Origin: Amyelois transitella
Taxonomy: Eukaryota; Arthropoda; Insecta; Lepidoptera; Pyralidae
DNA: 64,000 bases
Assembly: GCF_032362555.1 (NCBI RefSeq)
Contig: NC_083528.1
Location: 5,146,001-5,210,000, forward strand
Direction of reading: 5' to 3'
Part shown: in pieces, positions 2,926 to 54,950 of the stretch
Position numbering within the stretch: position 1 is the first letter of the stretch
Layout: every line of letters starts with the position of its first letter
The notes under the pieces: generated by a model
Seen by the model: the letters and a program-made list of their open reading frames with translations, nothing else
Database searches by the model: none
What the model was told of the DNA's origin: nothing
Position numbers and translations under genes: made by a program

Positions 2926-2976
2926 CATGGGAGCTTTTAATTGACAATACTTGCCACTTAATTAAAAGCTTCCATG
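2926..2976. repeat. Short foldback hairpin (17-bp arms)
   Basis: Arms 2926-2942 and 2960-2976 are inverted copies with one mismatch (CATGGGAGCTTTTAATT against AATTAAAAGCTTCCATG), separated by 17 nt. The right arm abuts the first base of the following family A element, so the foldback may mark an insertion boundary. Confidence 0.6.
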
Positions 2977-3243
2977 TGTCGTGTGGTTCTCGGCACCAAT
3001 AAAAAAAACATTAGGACCACTCCATCTCGTTCCCACGGATGTCGTAAAATGCGACTAAGCGATGTAAGGTTTATAAACTTGGGATACTTCTTTTAGGCGA
3101 TGGGCTACCAACCTGTCACTATTTGAATCTCAATTCTATCATTAAGCCAAACAGCTGAACGTGGCCTATCAGTCTTTTCAAGACTGTTGGCTCTGTCTAC
3201 CCCGCAAGGGATATAGACGTGGTTATATGTATGCATGTATGTA
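2976..3243 (+). repeat. Full-length family A repeat
   Basis: Runs from the 5' gtgtcgtgtggttctcggcac hairpin through the ccactccatctcgttccca block, the aggcgatgggctaccaacc block and taccccgcaagggatatagac to a tatgtatgcatgtatgta tail. Confidence 0.85.
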
Positions 3244-3677: not shown

Positions 3678-3920
3678 ATGGCCTCTGTGGCGCAGCGGTT
3701 GAACGCTTGTCTGCGACACCGAAGGTCCCGGGTTCGAATCCCGGCCAGGGCATGATGAGAAAAGAACTTTTTCTGATTGGCCTGGGTCTTGGATGTTTAT
3801 CTATATAAGTATTTGTTATAAAATATAATATTGTTGAGTTAGTATTTCGTAACACAAGTTTCGAACTTACTTCGAGGCTAACTCAATCTGTGTGATTTTT
3901 CCCGTATATATTTATTTATT
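3678..3920 (+). repeat. Family B tRNA-derived SINE, complete
   Basis: The head carries a pol III A box (TGGCGCAGCGG) and B box (GGGTTCGAATCCC) with tRNA-like spacing. It continues through a unique body (tgatgagaaaagaactttttc, gtcttggatgtttatctata) to the 3' segment gaggctaactcaatctgtgt and a tattta tail. It is not a functional tRNA because there is no acceptor stem closing on the 5' end and the body runs straight on. This copy has the best-preserved internal promoter in the window. Confidence 0.85.
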
Positions 3921-7985: not shown

Positions 7986-8512
7986 CACAAACTTCGCTGA
8001 TCCGATTTCGATGCGGTTTTCAGGAAAGAGTTTGTTACACTTAGAAGAAGATTTGAGATATTTAACCGACTTAAATAAAGGCGGTTCCCTTTTTACAAAA
8101 GTTGAAAGAGAATTTCAAATTCAATTCAGTGAGTTCAGTCAGTTCAAGATCCATTTTATATAACACTTAGGTGATGCAAAAACTCACTAGTAACATTAAA
8201 ATACAATTTCAGTATGAATACCTTTACTAATTCCTTTTTTTATAAACTTTTCATTTAATTTAATTATGTGGACGTATGTACCCATGACAAGGGTCGATGT
8301 TCGATTGGATACTAATAGTTTGCATATCTCAATCACCGCATTCGATCTGAATTTAAAATATAAATTTACGTATAAATTTGCGTGCATACAAACTCATTAT
8401 ACCACAGATTATTAAGTGGTTCGCTAATTTATGTTCTGAATGAGGACTTGCATATGAACTAATCAAATTCACCTGTTTTAAGATAGTTTTATTTAAATTA
8501 CCGTGCCGTGTG

Positions 8513-8764
8513 GTTCCCGGCACCAATACAAAAAATAATAGGACCACTCCATCTCTTTCCCATGGATGTCGTAAAAGGCGACTAAGGGATAGGCTTACAA
8601 ACTTGGGATTCTTTTTTAGGCGATGGGCTAGCAACCTGTCACTTTTTGAATCTCAATTCTATCATTAAGCCAAATAGCTGAACGTGGCCACTCAGTCTTT
8701 TCAAAACTGTTGGCTCTGTCTACCCCGCAAAGGACATAGACTTGACCATATGTATGTATGTATG
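8513..8764 (+). repeat. Full-length family A repeat
   Basis: Carries the 5' hairpin gtgccgtgtggttcccggcac and a tail of perfect ATGT units (tatgtatgtatgtatg). Very close to the copy at 19133-19394 throughout. Confidence 0.9.
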
Positions 8765-15631: not shown

Positions 15632-15880
15632 TTTTTTTTTTTTTTATATATACGGGACAAATTACACAGATTGAGTTAGCCTCGAAGTAAGTTCGAGACT
15701 TGTGTTACGAGATACTAACTCAACGATACTATATTTAATAATAAGTACTTAGATATATAAACATCCAAGACCCAGAACAATCAGAGAAAGTTCGTTTCTC
15801 ATCATGCACTGGCCGGGATTCGAACCCGGGACCTCCGGTGTCACAGACAGGCGTATTACCGCTGCGCCACAGAGGCCGTC
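15632..15880 (-). repeat. Family B tRNA-derived SINE, complete, antisense
   Basis: The reverse complement has the head gacggcctctgtggcgcagc with the B box GGGTTCGAATCCC, the full body and the 3' terminus, followed by a T-rich tract at 15632-15645 that corresponds to the A-rich tail. Confidence 0.85.
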
Positions 15881-19132: not shown

Positions 19133-19394
19133 GTGCCGTGTGGCTCCCGGCACCAATACAAAAAAGAATAGGACCACTCCATCTCTTTCCCATGGATGTC
19201 GTAAAAGGCGACTAAGGGATAGGCTTACAAACTTGGGATTCTTTTTTAGGCGATGGGCTAGCAACCTGTCACTAGTTGAATCTCAATTCTATCGTTAAGC
19301 CAAATAGCTGAACGTGGCCATTCAGTCTTTTCAAGACTGTTGGCTCTGTCTACCCCGCAAGGGATATAGACGTGACCATATGTATGTATGTATG
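19133..19394 (+). repeat. Full-length family A repeat
   Basis: Best-preserved example, running from gtgccgtgtggctcccggcac to a tatgtatgtatgtatg tail with all internal blocks intact. Two overlapping short frames in opposite directions are repeat artefacts. Confidence 0.9.
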
Positions 19395-19729
19395 TTTATA
19401 TTGATAAAGGTTGACCAATAAGATAATAAAGATTTTCTGATTAATTATTTTGAAAAAAATAATCAAAATAAATCCTATAATTTACTATGGCATAGGTATC
19501 TACATTTACTAGTCGAGTAAATACATAACGCTGATAATACATATAACGGAACATATAAATTAACATAAATATTACTCATAAATCATTCCAAGTACTTAAC
19601 GAGTTTTAATCTTAAAAATAAATCTATACATATTCAAAATATAATAAATAATATGCATAGTAAAATACCAGACACAGACTACATCAAAAAAAGATAGCAA
19701 CTATTACAATTACATCATTTCTCTTCGCC

Positions 19730-30465: not shown

Positions 30466-31779
30466 ATAGATAGATGTATATAAAATCTGCGTAGGTACGA
30501 ATATCTGTAGGTACATAAACACGTAAAACGTACTCACATAAATGCTCAAATATCTTTAATACTATTATTTTATGGTCATATTGCAAAAAGACAGTGTTCT
30601 GTTATTTTACTTAGTTCGAGACTAACTCAATCTGTATAATCTATCCCGTAGATTTAATATTATAAAAAAGGAAGTTTGTAACTTTAATTGTTTGTTTGCA
30701 AGGTCCAATCTTCGAAAATACTGAACTTATCATAAAAAGTCTTTCACCGGTATAACAAATTACATTATCTGCGGATGTTATAGACTGTAAATGTAATACC
30801 TACTTACCATAGGCGAAGCAGAGGCGGGCCTATGATTTTTCTCATGATCCTGAAAACCTTATAAAACTTTTATTTCTTTTAAAATAATTTGAATGAAACG
30901 TTTATTTTTTTGATGATAGTTGTTTATTTTATTTTGCATCCACCTTGGGTGTCAAGCCCCCCAAAGTAATTATTTCGCGACAGTGCCATCTACCCACGTC
31001 TGCCAACATTATTTTGCAAGCCGCAGTTGCGTTGCGAAGCTTTCGCAACTTTAGTTATTTTTTGTCACCGCGTAGGAAATCATTATTTAAAACAAAAATT
31101 CGTACATAAATGTTCATAATACTTCTAAAAACAATGTTTATGTTATTTACAAATGTATACAGTACATACAACATACAAAAAGCTTTTTACAATTATTTCG
31201 TATGGTAACTCTGGCTGTCTGACCTTTTTTAATTAGGACCACCCTGAACAGGGGGCTTACCATAAACTTTAAGAAAACCATGATAGTTTTCGCCCGTTTT
31301 GTTTCAAGCTTAAAATAATGTTGTTCCAAATCATACCATGAACTTTTAAAACAAGATTGTTTTATTCCTGCTTAGTGTTGTGAAAGAACGAAGGATTTAT
31401 CTATTCCCTGGCGATTGTGAAAGCGAGACACAAGATGTGTTTCGTATAGCTGCGTCACTTTTACGCAGTGTTCCAATTGACTCTCATGGAGCTCTCATGA
31501 CGACAATACGAAATTTTAATTTCATAATCTCATTTATAAAATATGTGTTTTAAAAGTTAATAAGTGTATGAAAGGTGAATAAAGTATTAAAGTATTAAAT
31601 CTTAATCATTAAAACAAAATATGGCTTTTGAATTACGTTTCCAAGTGAAATTGTGTACCATACTACAGGCATCATTCGGAACATTTTTTGACGTCACAAC
31701 AAAACAGTCGGCGCGGCCACTCAAAAAGTCTCTGTGCTTATTCGAAGTAAAGAAAATAATTTGTATTTTTATTAAAACT

Positions 31780-32972
31780 ATGTCTAATTCCAAGTAAGTT
31801 TACTCAATTATTGGTGTGTATAATACGGACATAACGTGTGTTGTGAAACTATTTTATTTCTTGCAAATTCATATCATATAAGTATTTTGTTTCGTTAAAA
31901 ATTTCTCGTAGTAATAACAAGTCAGCTATGTTAAGTGGTATAAGTTTGAAGTGGGTTTTTTTTGCAGCGTTAGGAATCGTCGCGTTTCTATGAGGCAGCT
32001 TGAACTTTTGTGGGAATTCTTAAATTCTAATAAAGACATTGCGACTGGTTTTAACCGCTCCTTACAGGCGAAAGAATATTCGGCTAGGAAATGGCAAGAA
32101 ATCGCCGAAATTCTAAACGCACAAGGAGATGGTGCACTCAAAGATGGAAAAATGTGGTCAAAGGTAACTAAATAAAAATATATAAGGAGGTATATCTAAA
32201 CATATGTGTCAGTCAATGCATTACTTGGAGACTACTTATCATAACTTATTACATATTTCTTCTAGTACTGGGTGGATTACAAGGCAAAATTAAAAAAAAG
32301 GAATGCCGCTCTACATTCATCCAGACGGCGAACCGGAGGAGGATCAGCTAATGAGCCACCTTTGTCCCAAATAGAGGATAAATTTTTATCCATACTAGGA
32401 GTAGATTTTGGTCAAGGTATGGCTGGAATCAGAGTGGATCCATTAACAGAGGTAAATAATTGAAGTCATGTCAAAAATGAATGTGTATATATAATTTTTA
32501 TAATTGTTACTATTTTGTGTACTTTTAGGCACATACTGCAGTAACATCTGAACCTACATCACAGTCCATTTTGACAAGGGAAGGTATGGAAGAACCTTCA
32601 CTTGTACAACTCGAGGTGTTTGATGATGGTGCAGGACCTTCGCATGAAGTGGATAGGCATATGGACACTGAGCAAGCCATATTGGAGGATCCCTTTCCTG
32701 CGGTAGTTGAGGGGGAGAGAGCAGAGAGAGAAGAGCCAGAATTATTGGCACCATCTCCCCAGCCTAGTGGACGCCGCAGCCGCAGCCGCAGCCGCAGCCG
32801 CCATGTTTTATCTCGGGAGGACGCTAGGCGTCTTCTCGTGCAGTCGGCCCAAGAAAAAACAGAGGCCAGTGTGCGTAGCAGTAATGCCATGGAGGGTGTG
32901 CAGCGAAACCTGGCACTTATTGCCAATAGTCTAAAAACGATACAAGATGATATACGGGATATAAAAAGGTAA
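31780..32972 (+). CDS. Harbinger Myb/SANT-like DNA-binding protein
   Basis: Predicted exons are 31780-31793, 31968-32163, 32266-32451 and 32529-32972, all with GT-AG introns and consistent phase, giving 279 residues. Residues about 10-95 form a Myb/SANT-like domain of the zeste-related type (RQLELLWEFLNSN, then ARKWQEIAEILNAQG, then KMWSKYWVDYKAKLKKR). After an acidic linker comes a short RSRSRSRSR tract (cgcagc codon repeat near 32771-32805) and a helical C-terminus (ANSLKTIQDDIRDIKR). In known Harbinger elements the Myb-like partner binds near the ends and helps bring the transposase into the nucleus; that role is inferred here. Exon 1 is only 14 nt (MSNS plus two bases). If it is wrong, the start would be the Met at the RQLELLW segment. 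The gene lies convergent with the transposase inside the same TIRs. Confidence 0.85.
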
Positions 32973-33227
32973 TGACAACATACTTTTCATCAAAAAATAC
33001 TTTATTTTAAAGGACTAATATACATATTATAAAATTAATATTAGCTATTAGTGTTATTCTGAAATGAAATCTAAATTAAAAAAAAATTATAACTTAATTT
33101 CCGTAAACTTGATTTTAGTAAGTAAAAATCCAAATACCTATGTATTACTGAGAAAATAAATAAAATAATAAGCACTAAAATTTTGTATGTGATTAAAAGT
33201 ACTACATTATTATTTTCAGCATAATGT

Positions 33228-34838
33228 CTAGCGCCTTTCCCAGAGCCGCTGAATGAGAGCGTTCCTCACGGCCACACCCTGCTGGAGTGCTACGTTACCA
33301 CGCCCTCCTTCCGTCACTGGAATACTACTATGTGCAGAATAAATTGCCACTAATCGAGATTCTTCTTGTCTTTCTTCTGTAGTTAACTCTTGCGGAGGTA
33401 GCTTGGCTCCATTGCACATATTATGTAATATAACACATGAATTTACAATAGAACCAGCTACCTCTGGTTGATAGTGCAATCTTCTATGTAGTAGTAAACA
33501 ACGGAATCGTGCTTTTAAAAGACCAATTGTGCGTTCAATTATATTTCTAGTATGCACATGCAAATTTGTATAATGTGCCTCTGGTGTATTTGGTGCTGCA
33601 TTTAAAACAGGCGTCATCATGTACCGTCTTAATGGATATCCAGAGTCACCTGTAAAACAATTAAATTTTAACTTTTTTTATAATGAAGCTTTTTTTACAA
33701 GTTGATGATACTAGCACATCCACCATTATGCCTGCATTATGGTGACAGTTTCATTTATATACTACTTATAAAAATGCAAAATACTTACCAAGAAACCATA
33801 CATTTTCATTATTACTTAGTTCTTCCATGTAGTCCTTTAAAGGATGACTAGACCAAATGAAAGAGTCATGAGTTGCACCTCCATGACTGGCATCAACACT
33901 TATAATTTGCATGTCAGCATCACAAACCTAGAAACAATGTAAATATTTAGTTTTTATATTTATTTACAACCAAATTACTTAGTTATTTAAGATATTCATT
34001 TTTGGGCAAAATTATGCCAATTATTAAAAGTTTACTTACCAATTGTACGTTTAGAGAATGGTAATCCTTTCTGCAAAAATATCTGTCTTCATGCTGGTTA
34101 GGACGCTCAATAGCAACATGAGTGCCATCAATGCATCCTAATACTCCCGGAATATTAAACTTGTTATGAAATCTAAAACAAGGAATATATTATTTTTATT
34201 ACCATAAGAAAATGCACGGGATACAATAAAACATTAGTATTTATATTATATTTGTCTTGTATTAAGTTATTTTATATACCTTGTTTTTATTTTGTTTTGT
34301 TCATCACTATTATTAGGAAAGTGAATATATTTTTCTCTAAAATATGTATTATTTAGGCACTTTGAAATTTCATTTATGACAGTAGACACAGTTTGCTGAG
34401 CTACAAAATGCCCTTGAATCTTTCCTGTAGGTCTTTGATAAGACCCTGTGGCAAAAAATGACAAAGCAGTCAAAACCTGAAAAAAGCAAATACGTAAGTG
34501 AAGATAACACAAAGAATCCCCCATATAGATGCACTTTATTCTCATTATGATACATATTCTAAATAAAAGTTTTCTAGGTTTACCTTTGTCTCCACCGACA
34601 AGTCAGTAGCTTTTTGTGGTGTTTTAAGGAAAGGTCGAATCTCTTCACATAAATCGCGAGCTAGTGTTTTGGTCAATCGGTACTCCTTAACAAATTGAGC
34701 ATCCGTGTATATTTCAAACGGATCACATTGATCCCGTAATCGTCTATGCCGCTCCTTTGCTGCCTGCTTCCTCCTTACACTATCTTCATGGTCGTCTTCT
34801 TCTTCCAAGTATTCAAAGATCTCGTATTCATTAGCCAT
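33228..34838 (-). CDS. Harbinger DDE transposase (HARBI1-like)
   Basis: Five exons on the minus strand: 34584-34838, 34280-34476, 34040-34172, 33789-33927 and 33228-33649. All introns are GT-AG and the phases join without a stop, giving 381 residues. The catalytic triad of the DDE_4 superfamily is visible: D166 in GCIDGTH, D243 in GDSGYPL and E280 in RNIIERTIGLLKARFR, followed by the conserved VNSCVILHNMC segment. The acidic N-terminus (EIFEYLEEEDDHED) and a helical region before the catalytic domain are usual for HARBI1 relatives. The ATG at 34838 is chosen because an upstream in-frame Met adds a stretch with no family similarity. The enzyme would cut and paste the surrounding element. No broken residue was seen. 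Confidence 0.9.
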
Positions 34839-35246
34839 TACAAACGTTGTTTTATATATATCACGTAAACAAACACCTTCAAACACTAACGTAACGTAAC
34901 TAACACAGTGAACACTTTATGCTTACTTATTTCAACACTCAAATGTCTCATAAGGTTTTCAAGTGGTTTGTAAGCATTGAAGGAATCACACTCAATATGA
35001 AAAAAGTTTTGTTTCCATGGCATCCGACCAACTTTTTCAAGATCGCAAAAATTGACGTAAAAACAATATTACTAGTTGTCAAATAACGGCTTATAGTACG
35101 AAATTGAATGAACGTTTCGTTGTGACGTCATCAAAACTGCTAAGAAATGTAAGCTTAAAGTAATATTGTTTTCTAAGTGTCATGGTACAAATTTCAAAAG
35201 TAATATTGAAACAATACTGCTACAAGACATTATGGTAAGCCCCCAG

Positions 35247-44188
<8,942 letters not shown>

Positions 44189-49289: not shown

Positions 49290-52200
49290 TTAAATGTCTA
49301 CTTTTCTTTTACAACAATTGCACTTTTGAACACGATTCTTCAACTTGTAATGAAACTTGTTATGACAAGTATTGCATTTATAAACTTTTTGCCCACTATT
49401 TATCTTTAAGTGATATCTGAGAGCATCTTTATTTATATATTGTCGTTGACAAACGTCACATTTATATGGTTTCTCACCAGTATGAGTTCTCAAATGTATT
49501 TCCCAATTGTGCCGAGAAATGAACCGCCGCTTGCAAATGTTGCATTCAAATGGTTTCTCGTCGGTGTGAATTTTTAAATGCCTTTGCAAGTGATGCTTTC
49601 TTCTAAATCGGTTTCGACAAACATGACACTCGTGAAGTTTCTCAGACGTGTGTGTCTTTAAATGTTCTTGCAAATGATGCTTTCTAAAAAAATTCCGTTG
49701 ACATATATTACATTCAAAAGGTTTTACACCGGTGTGAGTTTTTAAATGGCGATTCAATTCGTAGGTACCACAATATCTTTGTTCACAAACATTACATTTA
49801 TATTTTCCATTGCCCGATTTCGCCTTATTTGATTTGTGCCGCTTTTGAATTCGTTTTGTCATATTCTCTTCAGGTGCTACCACTATTTCATATACGAGTT
49901 CCATATCCTCGCTTTTGATAGCCACAGCGCCATCTGAAATTTAAAAAATAGGTGAATTACTCGAACTTACATCGTGACTTGACATTGAAATTATTTTGAC
50001 GTAATATTATTTCGGATGGATGGATGATCACTCAATACCTACGAGGTTGATATTTAAATATTTACAGGCAAAGCCAGCTGGCATATTTTATACCATTGTC
50101 TTAGTATATAAAAACATTGAAACTAATTTTATCGTAAAACTATTATTGTTTTTCGGTTTTCTTAAATATAGTGCATTTGATTATTTCTCTCAGTTCTCAT
50201 ATATAAAGTTATTAGGAAACAAGATGAATTTGAATACATGACTTTAAGGTTGTGATCGATATAAAAGCTGGTAAATGACACTTGTGAAATAGGAAGACAG
50301 CTGCATATATCATTCTGACTGCAGTTAGAGTTAATGTATATCTTTAAATTTGGAGGTGCGAAGGAAGTATGCAGGGATCGTGGCAAGTGGAAAGATGTAG
50401 TCTCAGCCTACCCCTCCAGTAAAAAGACGTGATTTTAACTATGTATTTTATGAATAAATTATCAAATGAATGGTGTATATAAAATACCATCAGAATTAAC
50501 TGTGCCCATAATAAAATCTGGGCCATGTGGCTGCAATTCACCCGCACTCTTTAAGGCTATGCTATCGCCTTCACTGTGGTCATCCTCAGCTGCCGTAGAC
50601 TCCTCTTCTCCTGGGTGCTCGGAGTCAGGATCTAAAAATTAATATCATCATATTTTTTTTTTATAATTTTTATTTTCCTAGTTGTTCCTGGCACCGATAC
50701 GACAACAACACACTAATTGTAATAAAAGTGTATGTTTACTCTTTTTGAAACAAAGATGTGATAGGCTTGTAAACTTGGGATTCTTCTTTCGAGTGATGGG
50801 CTAGCAACCTGACTGTTTGAATTTCAATCTTATCATTAAGCCAAACAACTGAACCCCTGAACGCGCGAAAAGCTATTGCTGTTTCGCTTTTTATTATGAC
50901 GTGAAACGGAATAGCAATAGTTTTTCGCGGGAAATAAAAGGCTTCGTGCGTGTCTTGCTACAGTGGCAGACCAAGAAGCTTAATAGCAGAGAGTGCAACA
51001 CGAAACATTCCACGATGAGAAAGAGATAACTTACAATCTGACACCTCAACTTTGAAGCCACACGCTGCATAATGCAACTCATTTTTGACCTCTACATCTG
51101 CCAGGGTATCTTCGCTGTCAAGCTTGGGTGGCTTACTGAGAATTGGAAGAGAGTCAATACATTCTGCAGTCGTTGTGACTAGGTTTCCACACAGTCCGTT
51201 ATCCTTGCGGTTTACTAGGGATACTGATCTCTTTGTGAGCTGAAAATAAATCAATAAGTAGGAATATAGAATATTAGCTTTAGTAGTAGTGGTGGATTAG
51301 GTTTCATTTCATTTATCCTCTTTTTCAAAATTTTCCCATTTTCTCACAATAAAAATTGGCACTTGTGCTTCCTTGCTTTGGTCAACAACTATTTATGCAA
51401 AAAAAATATTACATTAAATGGATGCGAGATACAAGACAAAAGCCTCCAATATTGTATAAACAAAAGAATGCATCTGTCTGCCTAATTACATAAAAATAAA
51501 GAATATAAGATGATTGAGATGTAAAGAATTCTGATTACTTGAGAATTTCGCTTCAACAGTACTGTCAAAATTTCTTCAGCTTTCGCTGATGTGACCATAA
51601 ACTTGTAGCACTTCTTCAGCTGGGCATAGCAGATGTAACAAGCTGTTACTGGTCGCAGGTCAGGAGTCAGAAGCTGAAATCACAATTTTAAATTACTGTT
51701 ATCATGTTTTTAAAAAAACTGAAAATTTTTATTAATCCACACTTAGGTATAATAAAAAGAAAAGATTTGCTTGTTTGTAATGAATAAACTCAAAACTATT
51801 CAAAATATGTTACTGAAATAAACACAGATAGAATAGACCTTTAGGAATAAGATAGGCTTTAATACTCTTTTTCCTCATAATTCCCACAGGAGCATAAGCT
51901 AGTAAATTATATATTGTGTGCCAACTTAAAAGCATGGATTTTTTTTTTCACAAGTATTTTGTATTTGGTAACTCTCTTCGCCGTCTTAATGTCTCTTTTT
52001 ATCATTCAAGTTACAGATTTCATCTAGTTTGGGATGAATTCCAGGAGCGTACCTCAATTTTATGTAATTTGTTGGCAAAACTGTTACAGTTATTTTACTA
52101 TAAAAAAAATATCATTAAACCATTCATTTTACCAGTTAAGGCCAGAACTGTTACTGACAAAGTTAAACAATGTATGGCTGAAACTACTGGGTGTAAGAAG

Positions 52201-52996: not shown

Positions 52997-53248
52997 GATA
53001 AATAAATAAATAAATATATACGGGACAAATTACACTGATTGAGTTAGCCTCGAAGTAAGTTCGAGACTTGTGTTACGAGATACTAACTCAACGATACTAT
53101 ATTTTATAATAAATACTTATATAGATAAACATCCAAGACCCAGGCCAATCAGAAAAAGTTCTTTTCTCATCATGCCCTGGCCGGGATTCGAACCCGGGAC
53201 CTCCGGTGTCACAGACAAGCGTACTACCGCTGAGCCACAGAGGCCGTA
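52997..53248 (-). repeat. Family B tRNA-derived SINE, complete, antisense
   Basis: The reverse complement has ggcctctgtggctcagcggt and GGGTTCGAATCCC boxes and the whole body, with an aaataaataaataaatatat tail at the left. It is nearly identical in the body to the copy at 15632-15880. Confidence 0.87.
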
Positions 53249-53645: not shown

Positions 53646-54950
53646 TACTCTGTCAAGAAAGTAGCAGGAAAAGATCAATAATACACAAACTGTTTGTTAT
53701 TCATCCCAATTTATTTTATCACCTTCAAAATATGCTCCTTTAGAAACGATACACTTACGCCAACGAATAATTCAATCATCAAAACATTTTTTAAACGCTG
53801 TTTCCGGAATTGAGGTCAGTTCTCGCCGCGAATTCTCTTTTATGTCTTCTACCGATTGAAAACGGGTGCCACGAAGTGGTAATTTGAGTTTAGGAAAAAG
53901 AAAAAAGTCGGCTGGAACCATATCTGGTGAATATGGTGGTTGCTCGATGGTATTTGTTGAGTGTTTGGTTAAAAATTCGTTCACAATGATGGCCTTGTGC
54001 GAAGGTGCATTATCATGGTGCAAAATCCAAGAATTTTCTTTCCACAAATCTGGCCTTTTTCGTCGGATTTGCTCTCTTAAACGCCGCATAACACTCAAAT
54101 AATATTCCTTATTTACCGTTTGACCTTCCGGCAAGAATTCCGAGTGCACAACACCGCGATAGTCAAAGAAAACAGTCAACATGACTTTGACTTTTGAACG
54201 ACTTTGGCGTGGTTTTTTCGGTTTCGGTTCAGTTGGAAGGCGCCACTCCGAAGCTTGTTGACTAGTTTGCATGTCAAACTCGTAAACCCACGTCTCGTCA
54301 CCAGTAACAATGCGTTTCATGAATGTTGGGTCGGAATTGACTCGTTCTAGCATGTCCTCAGCGACTCTCATGCGATTGAGTTTTTGAAAAAAATTCAGGT
54401 CTTTTGGGACTAGCCGAGCGGCAACATGTTTCATACCCAAATTATTAGTTAAAATGGTACGGATCGACTCGTGAGATACAGAAAGTTCGGTGGCTATCTC
54501 TCTCAAAGTTGAATGAGGATTTTCAGTCACTATTTCCTTCACTTTTGCGATGTTAACTTCAGTTGCAGACGTTGATGGCCTACCATCACATCTCGACCGC
54601 TTTTGAACGCTTTGTACCACTCATAAGCACGAGTTTTTGATAAAGTCGATTCACCGTAAGCCTTCTGTAACATTTTCAGTGACTCCGAACACGATATTCC
54701 ATTGGCAATGCAAAATTTAAGACAAACTCTTTGTTCGATGTTTTTATCCATTATGAAATTAGCAATACACACTAGATATGATATAACTAAAAATAGCACT
54801 GTATTTAATGTAAACAACAGATGCAACTCAAACTCCGCGCCAAAATGGAAAACAGTTGTGCCAATCTAACAACAACAAAAAAAAAACAAAAATTTGAATT
54901 TGGAACCATAAATAAATAATCCATTCCCGATACTTTTCTGACTGAATGTA
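53646..54950 (-). mobile_element. mariner-type DNA transposon, inactivated
   Basis: The left end (ctctgtcaagaaagtagcagg after TA) and the inverse of the right end (cattcagtcagaaaagtatc after TA) are imperfect terminal repeats of about 25-30 bp, flanked by TA, the mariner target dinucleotide. The exact left boundary is uncertain by about 2 bp. The body encodes one broken transposase. Confidence 0.85.
53697..54751 (-). pseudogene. mariner transposase pseudogene (DD34D)
   Basis: The N-terminal part (ATG at 54751: MDKNIEQRVCLKFC) is in one frame up to about FKSGRDV. The rest continues in another frame from about 54600 (GRPSTSATEVN), so a small indel broke the gene. The catalytic residues are still readable: D in TGDETWVYEFD, D in LHHDNAPSH, and D in PADFFLF, with 34 residues between the last two, the mariner DD34D signature. 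After KKCFDD a TGA replaces the usual Trp, and the remaining C-terminus (IIRWRKCIVSKGAYFEGD) follows in frame to a natural TAA at 53697. Two independent lesions make it non-functional. It sits between two host genes and disrupts neither. Confidence 0.92.

Follow-up and report, generated by a model that had tools for sequence, protein, structure and literature searches.

A complete transposon with two convergent genes

The stretch of DNA analysed here (the window) comprises 64,000 nucleotides of the Amyelois transitella genome and corresponds to C24:5146001-5210000 in a genome of 327 Mb in 33 contigs. At 31252-35243 it contains a complete DNA transposon of 3992 bp, which, judging from its sequence and that of its copies, is very probably a recently mobile cut-and-paste transposon of the NuwaI type in the PHIS (Harbinger) superfamily. 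An initial annotation had described an intact Harbinger transposon with two genes, and both genes were indeed found open and both ends intact. Its features are the following, where TSD stands for target site duplication and TIR for terminal inverted repeat.

31249..31251, no strand: left TSD, CAG (perfect CWG duplications at five of the six other aligned copies)
31252..31265, + strand: left TIR, GGGGCTTACCATAA
31277..31341, + strand: TIR core repeated inward in the left subterminal region, as ACCATGA at 31277 and at 31335 (TIR 5-mer test)
31780..31793, + strand: Myb/SANT exon 1 with ATG (alternative in-frame ATG at 31621)
31968..32163, + strand: Myb/SANT exon 2 (coincides with a match to residues 9-70 in a second family)
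32266..32451, + strand: Myb/SANT exon 3 (match to residues 70-129 in the second family)
32529..32972, + strand: Myb/SANT exon 4 with stop; Arg-Ser repeat near 32773-32802
33228..33649, - strand: transposase exon 5, containing D243, E280 and the stop
33789..33927, - strand: transposase exon 4
34040..34172, - strand: transposase exon 3; D166
34280..34476, - strand: transposase exon 2
34584..34838, - strand: transposase exon 1 with ATG
35180..35186, - strand: TIR core repeated inward in the right subterminal region, as ACCATGA (TIR 5-mer test)
35230..35243, - strand: right TIR
35244..35246, no strand: right TSD, CAG

The two TIRs lie in inverted orientation and are identical at 14 of 14 positions, with CAG at 31249-31251 and 35244-35246, just as the initial annotation had read the ends and flanks. 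With up to 2 mismatches allowed, the TIR has just two matches in the window, while shuffled sequences gave 0.32 on average and two or more in 5 of 100 cases. Because the same ends recur in the six other aligned copies, five of which have perfect CWG duplications, a chance origin of the ends is excluded.

The TIR core recurs inside the ends. In the two 86-bp subterminal stretches, TIR 5-mers occur 8 times in the inward orientation compared with a simulated mean of 1.3 (P 0.0014; P 0.005 against real background), and once on the opposite strand; TIR 6-mers gave P 0.018. The motif ACCATRA, picked post hoc, has three subterminal occurrences, a number reached in none of 5000 simulations, and we put weight on the k-mers defined by the TIR rather than on this motif. 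The commonest 5- and 6-mers were not significantly enriched at the ends (1083, 683 and 914 of 2000 simulations). The inward repeats are natural candidate sites for the Myb-like protein.

The genes converge, a Myb/SANT gene of four exons (279 aa) on the + strand and a DDE transposase gene of five exons (381 aa) on the - strand. In the gene models each of the seven introns has GT-AG borders and the exon junctions are in phase, and models and Pfam agree with the two open multi-exon genes first proposed. The transposase matches DDE_Tnp_4 over residues 165-318 with 127.8 bits (cut-off 24.8), and the Myb protein matches Myb_DNA-bind_5 over residues 7-82 with 24.7 bits (cut-off 21.7). D166, D243 and E280 are present where the initial annotation had placed them; we take D243 (in FLGDSGYP), not D216, to be the second catalytic Asp, presuming the usual order of RNase H strands. 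A single-sequence structure model was of poor quality (mean pLDDT 35.8).

Three-base periodicity is clear in the coding sequence, with GC of 0.51/0.57 at codon position 1 and 0.29/0.39 at position 3, and the introns are far poorer in GC (0.25). Matches of the Myb protein to the second family form separate blocks, residues 9-70 and 70-129, equal to exons 2 and 3; because the match splits into these same two blocks, the exon 2/3 junction is independently supported. The Myb start is uncertain between 31621 and 31780, and the upstream in-frame ATG would add 53 aa if used. The Arg-Ser hexamer repeat at 32773-32802 is 6 bases shorter in the copy on C2 and 12 shorter in those on C31 and C32, always in frame. 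Presumably the two genes are spliced and expressed, and their proteins make contact.

Poly(A)-like signals lie between the genes (window 32970-33230), at 33075-33192 on the + strand and at 33006 on the - strand, so that overlapping 3′ ends are predicted. Such convergent ends are a possible source of double-stranded RNA.

Copies, age and selection

The exact TIR 14-mer occurs 22 times in the genome, compared with once for a reversed-pattern control, and at least 58 pieces matched the whole element at the DNA level, with 40 of 95 candidates scored. Seven near-complete copies were aligned: the window copy (C24), C11:4031808-4035795, C31:2723745-2727707, C2:11477098-11481071, C32:6490558-6494514, C13:650616-655221 (C13a) and C13:1899392-1903199 (C13b). 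The alignment leaves out a split copy on C23, which has a long insert and unequal flanks (left CAG, right CTG), as well as partial copies, C32:1133409-1136027 among them.

Six of the seven aligned copies have perfect CWG duplications, CAG/CAG at C24, C13b and C32 and CTG/CTG at C2, C11 and C31; the flanks of C13a are CTG/GCT. C31 has one TIR mismatch at one end. The transposase is open in six copies and the Myb gene in five, and four copies (C24, C11, C31 and C2) have both open, with standard splice sites. With gaps excluded (4-37 columns in each pair), these four are 0.13-0.45% apart over the aligned sites. The nearest relative of the window copy differs at 0.38% of sites, and four bases inserted in the second Myb intron (32186-32189) are private to the window copy, being absent from the six others. 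An older subfamily, C32 and C13b, is about 1.4-1.7% away, 1.7% being the maximum among the near-complete copies. The element had been called young, which these few, little-diverged copies bear out together with the signs of selection on the transposase described below; the many diverged copies that an old element would have left did not appear among the near-complete ones found, and a copy count proposed at the outset yielded the four near-identical copies with both genes open.

The initial annotation had also suggested looking for miniature inverted-repeat transposable elements (MITEs). One close short derivative exists, a 149-bp element on C11 with CTG/CTG, besides a few end fragments. As a query it had 13 genome matches: itself, 8 left ends of large copies, 3 diverged fragments (C1, C29 and C19) and a 39-bp piece on C23. 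No burst of close short derivatives was found in this genome search, in which the 149-bp query represents the left end only.

That autonomous copies are rare, as had been supposed, was not supported. Both genes are open in four of the seven aligned copies here, and the second family, in which both genes are recognisable, includes two copies 99.2% identical. PMC4482050 counts as potentially active 11 of its 23 families in NuwaI and 88 of its 214 in PIF/Harbinger, and PMC8437027 reports 269 intact Harbinger-Snek copies in one sea krait.

The private substitutions number 1 in C11, 3 in C31, 4 in C13a, 8 in C24, 9 in C2, 12 in C13b and 19 in C32. Eight in 3992 is 0.2%, or roughly 0.7 million generations at a butterfly mutation rate of 2.9e-9. 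The window copy is thus young, but C11, C31 and C13a have fewer private substitutions, so that it is not the youngest. None of the 46 pieces of short interspersed elements (SINEs) in the window lies inside the transposon (P 0.051), which is suggestive only as a sign of youth. A mariner in the window does carry the two lesions ascribed to it, a frame change and a stop; as an argument for the youth of the Harbinger-like element the comparison is weak alone, since two lesions versus none gives P 0.12 at equal age.

Selection was examined between a young subfamily (C24, C11, C31, C2 and C13a) and the old one (C13b and C32). In the ten young-versus-old pairs the transposase pN/pS, the ratio of nonsynonymous to synonymous differences per site, is 0.14-0.35, the differences being mostly silent per site. 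The strongest contrast, C24, C11 or C13a versus C13b, has 6 differences at 245 synonymous and 3 at 898 nonsynonymous sites (Fisher P 0.004), and the remaining ones gave P 0.010-0.066. Such constraint could also be expected if the two genes were a domesticated pair kept by the host, like lepidopteran LPLG2/LPM2, with the open frames reflecting host use. We find this hardly credible, as the element has intact ends and a target duplication and is dispersed in seven near-complete copies, three with a broken gene, whereas the lepidopteran domesticated genes each occur in one copy, with neither TIRs nor TSDs.

Several observations weigh against the reading of a recently mobile element. The ten transposase pairs share history and are not independent, and two contrasts, C31-C32 and C2-C32, miss P 0.05. 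Between subfamilies the Myb pN/pS is 0.63-0.85, a weaker constraint than that on the transposase. In the Myb gene, any two intact copies differ by 1-4 nonsynonymous changes and by no synonymous one, and the transposases of C24 and C2 differ by 5 nonsynonymous and 1 synonymous changes. Because the differences between intact copies lack a silent excess, no constraint is demonstrated on the present copies.

An element of the same kind could thus have moved until about 1 million generations ago and be dead or silenced now, repressed or lacking a needed part; this contests present mobility only, not identity. The 8 private substitutions of the window copy and the 1-9 of the other three intact copies agree with it, as do the small copy number without a burst of short derivatives found, the solely nonsynonymous Myb differences and the partial copies on C32 and C20. 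On the other side, both frames are kept in four copies, and private substitutions are just 1 in C11 and 3 in C31. We hold a recent death possible but rather doubtful, and consider it fairly probable that the NuwaI-type element can still move today. The element is perhaps autonomous. Its mobility is what the anatomy, the divergence of the copies and the selection between subfamilies together point to.

Related elements and the rest of the window

At least nine places in the whole-element search have a right end 71-72% similar (three on C10, two on C9 and one each on C8, C7, C5 and C2), which by their sequence make up a related short family. At C10:4645500-4648400 a related short element forms a head-to-tail array with a period of 1182 bp, in which the 1555 bp compared proved 100% identical; either recent tandem duplication or repeated self-insertion could have made it. 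The full C2 copy (11477098-11481071) occupies precisely the CWG that adjoins the end of a short relative (11481075-11482172); the end region of this relative is 96% identical to the C10 unit. The family could be moving now and partly targeting its own kind, such that new insertions at the CWG next to an element already in place could build tandem arrays, an idea that we regard as unlikely.

A second family, with both genes recognisable and a TIR starting CAGGC, is present at C5:2258873-2263627, C6:3366299-3371057, C7:8107598 and C14:2298293, the C5 and C6 copies being those 99.2% identical. Their flanks are CAG/CTG at C5, CTG/CAG at C6 and CAG/CAG at C7, and for C14 a right flank alone, CAG, was located. 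If C5 and C6 traded ends, each would regain a matching duplication, the pattern that an ectopic exchange would leave; chance in two cases could also account for the unequal flanks.

Exon-level transposase matches number at least 171, including the exons of the window family itself, with 108 of 652 candidates scored. Three Harbinger-like transposases 34% identical have open frames of 284-286 aa (C20:7226143, C19:1899532 and C20:1962676), and five 45% identical have equal or nearly equal scores (C24:3736747, C29:1136039, C17:3790783, C19:8503797 and C31:4742015); these matches suggest more young families. By impression, C32 (12.4 Mb) is frequent among partial and stop-bearing matches, and is perhaps the W chromosome or another low-recombination region.

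In sequence collections, protein scans picked out 4 stretches in viral_contigs and 78 in genome_contigs, and relatives were confirmed in neither. In viral_contigs, 6 stretches fitted a degenerate GCIDGTH pattern; their best tblastn match covered 13 residues at E 0.042, and we read all 6 as chance. The TIR with CWG was found in 24 stretches of the collections, none of which had a second end, a protein match at E 0.1 or a DNA match to the element. A sequence search of the PDB gave no relative (one hit, E 0.95).

Elsewhere the window is dense in SINE-like repeats, with 39 pieces of a 260-bp family (e.g., 2976-3242, 8503-8764 and 19133-19395) and 7 of another family whose head resembles a tRNA, in one case read as tRNA-His (e.g., 3680-3920, 15646-15879 and 53005-53247). 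The commonest, 260-bp repeat presumably resembles lepidopteran SINEs. The mariner transposase at 53772-54700 (- strand; Pfam Transposase_1) has its frame change near the start and its stop near the end. Other features are a 21-bp tandem repeat (42984-43125), a C2H2 zinc-finger reading frame (49290-49940, - strand) and a 312-aa open frame (43250-44188, + strand) with no Pfam match at E 0.01.

Classification and comparison with known systems

The element has the superfamily feature of PHIS/Harbinger, a DDE_Tnp_4-type transposase with a DDE triad, the second Asp being assigned by the strand order that we presume.

According to PMC4482050, PIF/Harbinger is defined by TWA duplications and NuwaI by CWG; NuwaI TIRs are 12-61 bp, usually starting with GGG, and most candidates have two open reading frames. 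The present element has CWG duplications in six of the seven aligned copies, a 14-bp TIR starting with GGG and frames for a DDE transposase and a Myb/SANT protein; the TWA duplication is absent. The CAG/CTG duplication differs from TWA and points to NuwaI. Thus the first label, Harbinger, stands for the superfamily, and the target is not that of PIF/Harbinger proper; NuwaI had been missed. A counterpoint is that the assignment to NuwaI is drawn from target and ends.

The element could instead belong to PIF/Harbinger proper and have an unusual target, sharing as it does the two-gene layout and the Pfam domains. This is very improbable given the published TWA duplication, as opposed to CWG in six of seven copies, and given that CWG together with a GGG start is characteristic of NuwaI.

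If the NuwaI-type element moves, the Myb/SANT protein would, by analogy with Harbinger3_DR and Ping/Pong, bind the TIR-like repeats close to both ends, help carry the transposase into the nucleus and recruit it. The DDE transposase would excise the element and insert it at CWG, duplicating those 3 bp. Should both proteins work, this would be a CWG-targeting Harbinger found in nature rather than reconstructed, its genes small and its ends short, allowing a direct test of how a Myb partner and a transposase set the target (CWG versus TWA). For the host genome, a recent, low-copy expansion is documented.

The element resembles Harbinger3_DR of zebrafish, which was reconstructed and is active in human cells, in having two genes, both of which Harbinger3_DR requires, and the target of Harbinger3_DR has CWG at its centre. 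Its Myb-like protein reportedly recognises a 9-bp subterminal motif (PMC9710019), binds the TIRs and is required for the transposase to localise to the nucleus (PMC2836001). Unlike Harbinger3_DR, whose target is the 15-bp palindrome AAACACCWGGTCTTT, the window element does not match this target: the window site scores 7/15, a score equalled or exceeded by 46% of the window CWG sites. An extended palindromic target was also considered, as the empty site in the window has 5 of 7 flank pairs (equalled by 21 of 1439 window CWG sites), and was rejected on six copies, where 14 of 42 pairs gave P 0.22 at an assumed 0.27 per pair.

PIF/Harbinger proper (Ping/Pong, TWA) shares the superfamily, the gene content and a 3-bp duplication, and differs in its TWA target. 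In Helicoverpa, MITEs were assigned to PIF/Harbinger by TWA, AT or AWT duplications, according to PMC9033116. LPLG1 and LPLG2-LPM2 of Lepidoptera have a PIF transposase, with a Myb/MADF partner in LPLG2-LPM2, but are described in PMC9710019 as single-copy, without TIRs or duplications.

Among the papers listed by searches of the open-licence PMC literature, judged by title and abstract start, no report of NuwaI in Lepidoptera was found, and we make no claim of a first report. Published NuwaI (PMC4482050) is the closest in kind, with CWG, the GGG start, the TIR length, two genes and a mean size of about 4462 bp compared with 3992 bp here. Its hosts comprise 12 bony fish, a beetle, a crustacean, a mollusc and an anthozoan, whereas the host here is lepidopteran.

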